Source: Roseomonas gilardii (lineage in GTDB: Bacteria; Pseudomonadota; Alphaproteobacteria; Acetobacterales; Acetobacteraceae). Taken from it: 64,000 bases of DNA. Of the stretch, positions 29,185 through 29,616 are shown one piece after another. Made by a program: the position numbers and the translations under genes. The stretch's first letter is position 1; each line of letters opens with the position of its first letter. The stretch spans positions 2,921,501 through 2,985,500 of the forward strand of contig NZ_CP015583.1 in the NCBI RefSeq assembly GCF_001941945.1, read 5' to 3'. A model generated the notes under the pieces. It saw only the letters and a program-made list of their open reading frames with translations, searched no databases and had not been told where the DNA came from.

Positions 29185-29616
29185 GCCGACGGGCCGGAGC
29201 GCTTCGGGGCGCTCCCCTGGCCGGCCCCGGGGAAGGCTCCGCCTCCCCCGGCACCCCTCCGCTGGGGGGATGGTATCCCCCCAGACCCCGCCTTGAGTTG
29301 GCATCGGTGGCAAAGTCAGCCCACGGCCCGATCCCCGGAAGCAGGTGGATCGGCGGGCCTCCGAGAAAAGCACCTTGCCCACGTTGGCGGCGCCCGCAGT
29401 CGCCGGAGAGCATGGCTCTCCGGCGCGATCCGGCACCAGCAGGAACCAGCGAACCGGGTCCAGGGCGCGCAGCGTCCTGGCGGATGGGGGGTACGGGGGG
29501 AAAGGCAGCGCCTTCCCCCCGGGCCACAGCCCCTTCACCCGAACACCTTCCTGCCGCGTTGCTCCGCCATCACCCGGCGTTTCCGCTCCTACCCGATCTG
29601 CCCTAGGCCAGCCGCC
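29185..29616. other. Intergenic region before ligA, rich in hairpins
   Basis: These 432 bases carry no gene but several structures. There is GGGGAAGGC-TCC-GCCTCCCCC near 29230; a perfect 11-bp stem CGCCGGAGAGC/GCTCTCCGGCG with an ATG loop at 29401-29425; and copy A of a dispersed hairpin repeat at 29460-29520. The ligA promoter should lie in the last 90 bases but is not recognisable. Confidence 0.55.
29460..29520 (+). repeat. Dispersed hairpin repeat, copy A (two hairpins)
   Basis: Hairpin 1 (29460-29480) has arms CCAGGGCGC and GCGTCCTGG with a GCA loop and one G-T pair. After a 14-base spacer, hairpin 2 (29495-29520) pairs GGGGGG(A)AAGGC with GCCTTCCCCCC. Hairpin 1 with its flanks (GTCCAGG...CCTGGCG) recurs at 38767-38787 in inverted orientation and at 55040-55060. 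Copies A and B share the two-hairpin layout. Confidence 0.75.

Follow-up and report, generated by a model that had tools for sequence, protein, structure and literature searches.

The window, a stretch of 64,000 nucleotides (C1:2921501-2985500), belongs to the 5.41 Mb, five-contig genome of Roseomonas gilardii (G000), which is closely related to Roseomonas mucosa. With genes called by a codon-score caller trained on the window, the space between two tandem genes, one ending at position 29184 and a DNA ligase gene starting at 29617, is found to hold a full-length copy (copy A) of an element of ~350 bp with about 80 copies in the genome. Two further copies lie in the same window: copy B, which is one arm of a subtype and is joined to a second repeated module, and copy C, which is decayed (Table 1). 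The neighbouring genes of the three window copies are unremarkable. The only matches to Rfam 15 above the gathering score in the window are RNase P and a tRNA; the element has none.

Table 1. Features of the repeated element, its surroundings and RNA genes in the window (window positions)
Feature	Start	End	Strand	Remarks
RNase P RNA (class A)	3619	4050		
Copy A, full-length element	29186	29545	+	outer boundaries approximate; covariance-model match G000:C1:2950897-2951045
Copy A, left-end HP2-like hairpin	29223	29257	+	with flank, GGCCCCGGGGAAGGCTCCGCCTCCCCCGGCACCCC
Copy A, left-end HP1-like hairpin	29259	29289	+	CCGCTGGGGGGATGGTATCCCCCCAGACCCC; inverted relative to HP1
Copy A, central hairpin HP0	29401	29425	+	CGCCGGAGAGC-ATG-GCTCTCCGGCG
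Copy A, HP1	29458	29482	+	hairpin of the original prediction
Copy A, right-end HP2	29495	29520	+	GGGGGGAAAGGC-AGC-GCCTTCCCCCC
Copy B, HP2	38723	38754	-	
Copy B, HP1	38765	38789	-	between convergent genes ending 38667 (LysE family) and 39143 (sulfate permease)
Second module	38855	39027	+	adjoins copy B; CCTTGCTTCC-N-CTATAGGAATATAGTCAAC at 38855-38898, four CTAAAATC-type repeats at 38985-39027
Copy C, decayed	54978	55062	+	degenerate HP0 54978-55016, intact HP1 55038-55062, no HP2
tRNA-Met gene	61282	61354		

The original prediction was built on a single hairpin, here called HP1, at three sites of the window. All three are recovered with the pattern GTCCAGGGCGCGCAGCGTCCTGGCG at up to three mismatches (copy B differs by one loop change), and no match appears in 100 dinucleotide shuffles of the window. 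It was further proposed that these sites belong to a dispersed, REP-like intergenic family, and the whole genome indeed contains 78 matches at the same threshold, compared with none for the reversed-pattern control; 76 are on the 4.33 Mb chromosome and two on a 702 kb replicon. The match at C1:2588837 was rejected as a chance occurrence (two mismatches, inside a gene, no HP0 or HP2), leaving 77 real copies, every one of which is intergenic. Neither of the outcomes that had been named as fatal to the proposal, an absence of more copies in the genome and a scatter of copies through coding sequence, occurred.

The proposed unit of hairpin 1, spacer and hairpin 2 was too small. When the sequence around HP1 was followed outward at every copy, an imperfect inverted element of ~350 bp with three hairpin types emerged: one end is HP2-HP1, the hairpin HP0 lies in the centre, and the other end is HP1-HP2. 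The left end comprises an HP2-like hairpin (GGGAGAGGC-GCC-GCCTCTCCC), a spacer and an HP1-like hairpin (CCGGGGACC-GAAGCC-GGTCCCCGG) followed by GACCCCGGGCTTTCGTTGGC; the centre is HP0, CGCCGGAGAGC-NNN-GCTCTCCGGCG, which has 77 genomic matches at up to three mismatches; and the right end runs through GCCAACGAATGGG, HP1, GATAGGGGGT and HP2 to termini like GCGCAACGCCGGA. The parts of copy A that had gone unnoticed are HP0 and a left end in inverted orientation, which carries an HP1-like and an HP2-like hairpin of its own, whereas the second hairpin that had been described as common to copies A and B and missing from C is HP2 itself. Head-to-head HP1 pairs ~110-200 bp apart represent elements that have kept an HP1-like arm at both ends. 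A search with a 351-base consensus yielded at least 40 long copies of 81-92% identity, a number that may be higher in truth because 40 of the 243 candidate places were scored. The three-base loop of HP0 is seen in G000 as ATG, CAT, GAT and ATC, i.e., in both orientations, as if the top of the hairpin were flipping by template switching or inversion, with the arms remaining perfect. For either strand of copy A, folding is better than in each of 100 shuffles (z of -3.2 and -3.0); as the strands are about equal in this respect, folding does not pick out an RNA strand.

The second module beside copy B is itself repeated, with 10 copies in the parts of the genome examined (the others at G000 C1: 959017, 1080953, 1366364, 2422622, 3337129, 3631160, 3884623 and 4187308, and C2: 263865). 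It spans ~170-230 bp in total and consists of a promoter-like CCTTGCTTCC-N-CTATAGGAATATAATCAAC and, ~90-150 bp further on, GGATAAAGG with four CTAAAATC-type repeats; it is possibly a multi-copy small RNA or a protein-binding array. An insertion sequence origin of this subtype was rejected, as neither neighbour of copy B encodes a transposase; one encodes a LysE transporter, the other a sulfate permease. That a transcribed small-RNA gene family underlies the repeats, be it the element itself or the promoter and CTAAAATC module of subtype B, is a highly improbable reading. It draws on the ~10 copies in which the promoter-like motif and the CTAAAATC repeat are conserved and on an element that folds better than shuffles, but in most copies a conserved promoter is lacking, neither strand folds better than the other, Rfam offers no match, and a sigma-70 consensus scan of 38660-39150 found no promoter on the + strand.

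The exact letters of the element occur in three of 15 genus genomes (72, 75 and 91 matches), and a longer, stricter pattern run against GTDB genomes matched Roseomonas mucosa ATCC BAA-692 only. The covariance-model search that had been recommended (HP0-HP1-HP2) reached much further, with matches in 14 of the 15 genus genomes and at least 150 in G003; the loci in relatives show the same hairpin order, usually between convergent genes, and different stem letters. The frame GTCCAGG-N8-14-CCTGGCGG is found in 174 of 299 Acetobacteraceae genomes, compared with 0-3 for the reversed control, although counts of one or two per genome are at background level; the highest counts are 253 (G003), 151 (G235) and 113 (G085). 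A long exact pattern has three copies in G003 among the matches listed. The first three inner positions of HP1 are paired, with several pair types, in 35 of 47 distinct sequences, a set that was hand-picked and comes nearly all from high-copy genomes, and in 0 of 21 sequences from low-copy genomes. The hairpin is thus retained across lineages although its letters differ. The G-T pair fixed in the window copies had been offered as a sign of RNA-level function; other lineages have Watson-Crick pairs there (AAAC-TCA-GTTT, GGGG-..-CCCC), so that the pair is peculiar to this lineage and is better read as inherited from the lineage's common ancestor copy. One plasmid record, NZ_CP087720.1 of Roseomonas sp. 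OT10, the only such record, has a relative of the element at 4749-5043 (72.5% identity, 88% coverage).

Insertion sites differ between close species. When sites were mapped reciprocally between G000 and G004 (~94% identity), 12 were shared, five were empty in G004 and four were empty in G000. Among pairs read base by base with matching gene calls, the orthologous empty gaps measure 31-135 bp; the element ends have diverged and no target-site duplication is apparent at the empty and filled pairs read. At G004 C1:782298-782460, where G000 has a full element, an HP2-like hairpin stands alone with a tail resembling the element; this is either a deletion product or a precursor.

Copies lie 3' of genes, almost always just past gene ends: 45 of the 77 real copies are in convergent, 30 in tandem and two in divergent gaps. 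In a 400 kb sample on the parS side of the chromosome, 19 of 49 convergent, 10 of 243 tandem and one of 49 divergent gaps carry an element (convergent versus divergent, p = 6e-6). Most flanking stop codons are followed, usually after 5-60 nt, by HP2, then ACCCCC, then HP1. Element-free convergent gaps often have GC hairpins of their own and divergent gaps do not (a perfect stem of at least 8 in 0.39-0.43 versus 0-0.05 of them), and the element thus occupies positions at which the host maintains hairpins resembling terminators. We favour, with about even confidence, the reading that this is a BIME/REP-like, probably non-autonomous DNA element of the short intergenic spaces behind stop codons that, if it works at all, most likely serves as a bidirectional 3'-end module, since RNA polymerase arriving from either side would meet the same array of stop codon, HP2, ACCCCC and HP1. 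The element would have spread into these spaces, perhaps copied by a transposase that is lost or not recognised as such, or by recombination; its strong GC hairpins would shield RNA 3' ends by halting 3' exonucleases; the hairpins would also aid termination, probably with assistance by Rho or through collision; and converging transcription units would thereby be insulated from each other. HP2 is followed by ACCCCC and by no U tract, and a terminator scan of 38660-39150, the one stretch scanned, gave no terminator-like site, which together make intrinsic termination alone unlikely. As far as the sequence can tell, 3'-end protection by hairpins with Rho or collision fits better than simple intrinsic termination. 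Selection on RNA is not needed to keep a palindrome perfect, since template-switch repair can do so as well.

Copies are strikingly uneven along the chromosome. In G000 the parS-like sites are at 4.119 and 4.138 Mb; G004 has two at 0.759 and 0.780 Mb and one more at 1.213 Mb, and its site at 0.780 Mb adjoins parA and parB. The circular mean of the elements, 4.1455 Mb in G000 and 0.786 Mb in G004, falls ~30 kb or less from the parS sites, and the clustering around parS is significant in both species (Rayleigh p ~1e-14). Counted by eighths of the distance from parS, there are 30, 19, 13, 8, 7, 2, 1 and 0 elements in G000 (80 elements, a set that includes a hand-merged list from the HP1, consensus, HP0 and covariance-model searches) and 20, 28, 12, 9, 5, 1, 0 and 0 in G004 (75 HP0 matches). 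In neither species is there an element within ~0.4-0.5 Mb of the dif candidate. These candidates, G000 C1:1876895 and G004 C1:2909946, have 8 and 7 mismatches to E. coli dif; they are the only such sites in the ~2 Mb examined, each is within ~1 kb of a local cumulative GC-skew maximum, and KOPS (GGGNAGGG) switch polarity about them (114:18 and 143:28). parS and dif, rather than dnaA, are used as markers because dnaA is ~1.5 Mb from parS. A strong negative-to-positive GC-skew switch near 0.52 Mb in G000 and 0.224 Mb in G004 would by itself place the origin 0.55-0.72 Mb from parS, and no DnaA-box clusters were found in the stretches examined; with the skew switch off parS and dnaA distant, we name the axis parS-dif and not oriC-dif. 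In G004 the skew switch (C1 224 kb) adjoins rapZ, PTS and S-adenosylhomocysteine hydrolase genes.

Gene arrangement does not account for the empty terminus. A 400 kb sample on the dif side has 347 genes, 51 convergent gaps and no element; its parS-side counterpart, with 342 genes and 49 convergent gaps, holds 30 elements. The element is present in 19 of 49 versus 0 of 51 convergent gaps (p = 1.4e-7), and the dif-side sample of G004 has no element either. Several simple causes were considered and rejected. An accessory-rich terminus is contradicted by dif-side samples that are collinear between the species, where 275 of 347 genes have orthologs (237 of 342 in the parS-side sample); a shortage of target gaps, by convergent pairs that are equally frequent there; and an intolerance of hairpins near dif, by ordinary hairpins that are as frequent there. 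A conflict with KOPS is not supported, as these motifs are nearly absent from the elements (0.02 and 0.13 per element). A terminator role likewise does not account for the absence on the dif side, given the equal frequency of convergent pairs. The gradients of the two species are not independent replicates because of shared ancestry and many shared insertion sites. The sources of the gradient that remain are a founder location with local spread, dosage-dependent insertion and a topological role.

The first two of these would suit a purely selfish, MITE- or REPIN-like repeat with no host function, for which the 3'-end location is simply where insertion is tolerated or targeted (e.g., at terminator hairpins) and the parS gradient stems from a bias in insertion, from where the founder lay or from gene dosage. 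The patchy occurrence across the family, with the exact letters in three genus genomes, insertions that are polymorphic between close species, the decay of copies such as C, inverted-repeat ends and the lack of any strand or orientation bias relative to the replichores are all in keeping with such a repeat. Against it, stem complementarity is kept while letters change; dif-side convergent gaps are as common and as hairpin-rich, yet hold no element; and the contrast of 30 to 0 looks steeper than dosage alone would produce. On balance we consider a wholly selfish repeat possible but rather unlikely.

A topological role would make the element a part of chromosome organisation, forming cruciforms or offering sites for gyrase, condensin or a nucleoid protein that are kept near parS and excluded from the terminus. 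We judge this improbable, although the centring on parS in both species, the empty zone around a dif candidate that is marked by skew and KOPS polarity, and a terminus as conserved as the parS side all point in its direction. The distribution resembles that of SlmA and Noc nucleoid-occlusion sites, which lie away from the terminus and around the origin side; those sites, however, are short and bound by sequence-specific proteins. Here the unit is a large hairpin array whose letters vary from lineage to lineage, and that variation argues against a sequence-specific protein. In E. coli, BIME-2 and the Ori macrodomain are enriched in gyrase sites and Ter is depleted of them (PMC6379681), a pattern that is, by analogy, the nearest precedent for the distribution. 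The shared ancestry and insertion sites of the two genomes weaken the case, and so do the other replicons: the 702 kb replicon has one element only, a head-to-head pair, and the HP1 pattern search found none on the smaller replicons. In its boldest form, a hairpin element conserved in structure and variable in sequence would mark the parS-proximal half of Acetobacteraceae chromosomes, be actively excluded from the terminus domain, and act on topology or segregation via cruciforms, gyrase or condensin instead of a sequence-specific protein; we regard that proposal as decidedly doubtful.

The element has its closest counterparts among known bacterial repeats. BIMEs and REPs have been proposed to stabilise 3' ends, to aid termination and to bind gyrase. 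Those of E. coli and other gamma-proteobacteria are, like the Roseomonas element, short palindromes in many intergenic copies, mostly 3' of genes and between convergent ones and often in head-to-head pairs; in general terms the element is palindromic, multicopy, intergenic and mainly 3' of genes, as REPs and BIMEs are. It differs from them in its fixed size of ~350 bp, its three hairpin types, its parS gradient and its absence near dif. It also lacks the GTAG tag of REPs and REPINs, the foot of the hairpin being GGTC/GTCC in the copies listed, and a REP-associated tyrosine transposase (RAYT), for which the original prediction had proposed to look, did not turn up: Y1_Tnp (PF01797) has no match in G000 and is present in five of 14 control genomes. 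The alpha-proteobacterial CGTC REPs have a CGTC tag, a stem of 8-9 bp with A-T first or second pairs, a loop of 4-5 nt and a CCA tail, and are reported to be missing from Acetobacteraceae (PMC3733652). They too are hairpin repeats with no dedicated transposase and are mostly head-to-head dimers (PMC3733652), but the Roseomonas element has a GGTC tag, a CGGAT tail, C-G first stem pairs and, in the window copies, a 3-nt loop. It is therefore REP/BIME-like in kind, yet bears the tag of neither described REP superfamily and resides in a genome with no RAYT. MITEs and the rhizobial intergenic mosaic elements (RIME/ABC type) share with it a length of hundreds of bp, inverted ends, non-coding content, intergenic location and tens of copies, and the element does have terminal inverted repeats, formed by the HP2-HP1 ends, which are inverted, and by short termini of the TCCGGCGTTGCGC type; no target-site duplication is apparent at the empty and filled pairs read, where the ends have diverged, and the search for Y1_Tnp found no parent transposon.

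We found no report of Roseomonas intergenic repeats in the open-access literature. A 2025 survey lists many REPs in Lichenicola cladoniae, another member of the Acetobacteraceae, and the HP1 motif is not named in the part of the survey drawn on here (PMC12306157). A family reported to lack CGTC REPs has a REP-like repeat with its own tag and architecture, here in a genome with no evident RAYT. Its spread, dense at parS and absent at dif despite similar gene gaps, is a rare handle on what limits interspersed repeats, and the question is testable, as other Acetobacteraceae genera show expansions of this hairpin frame in which the stems are different.
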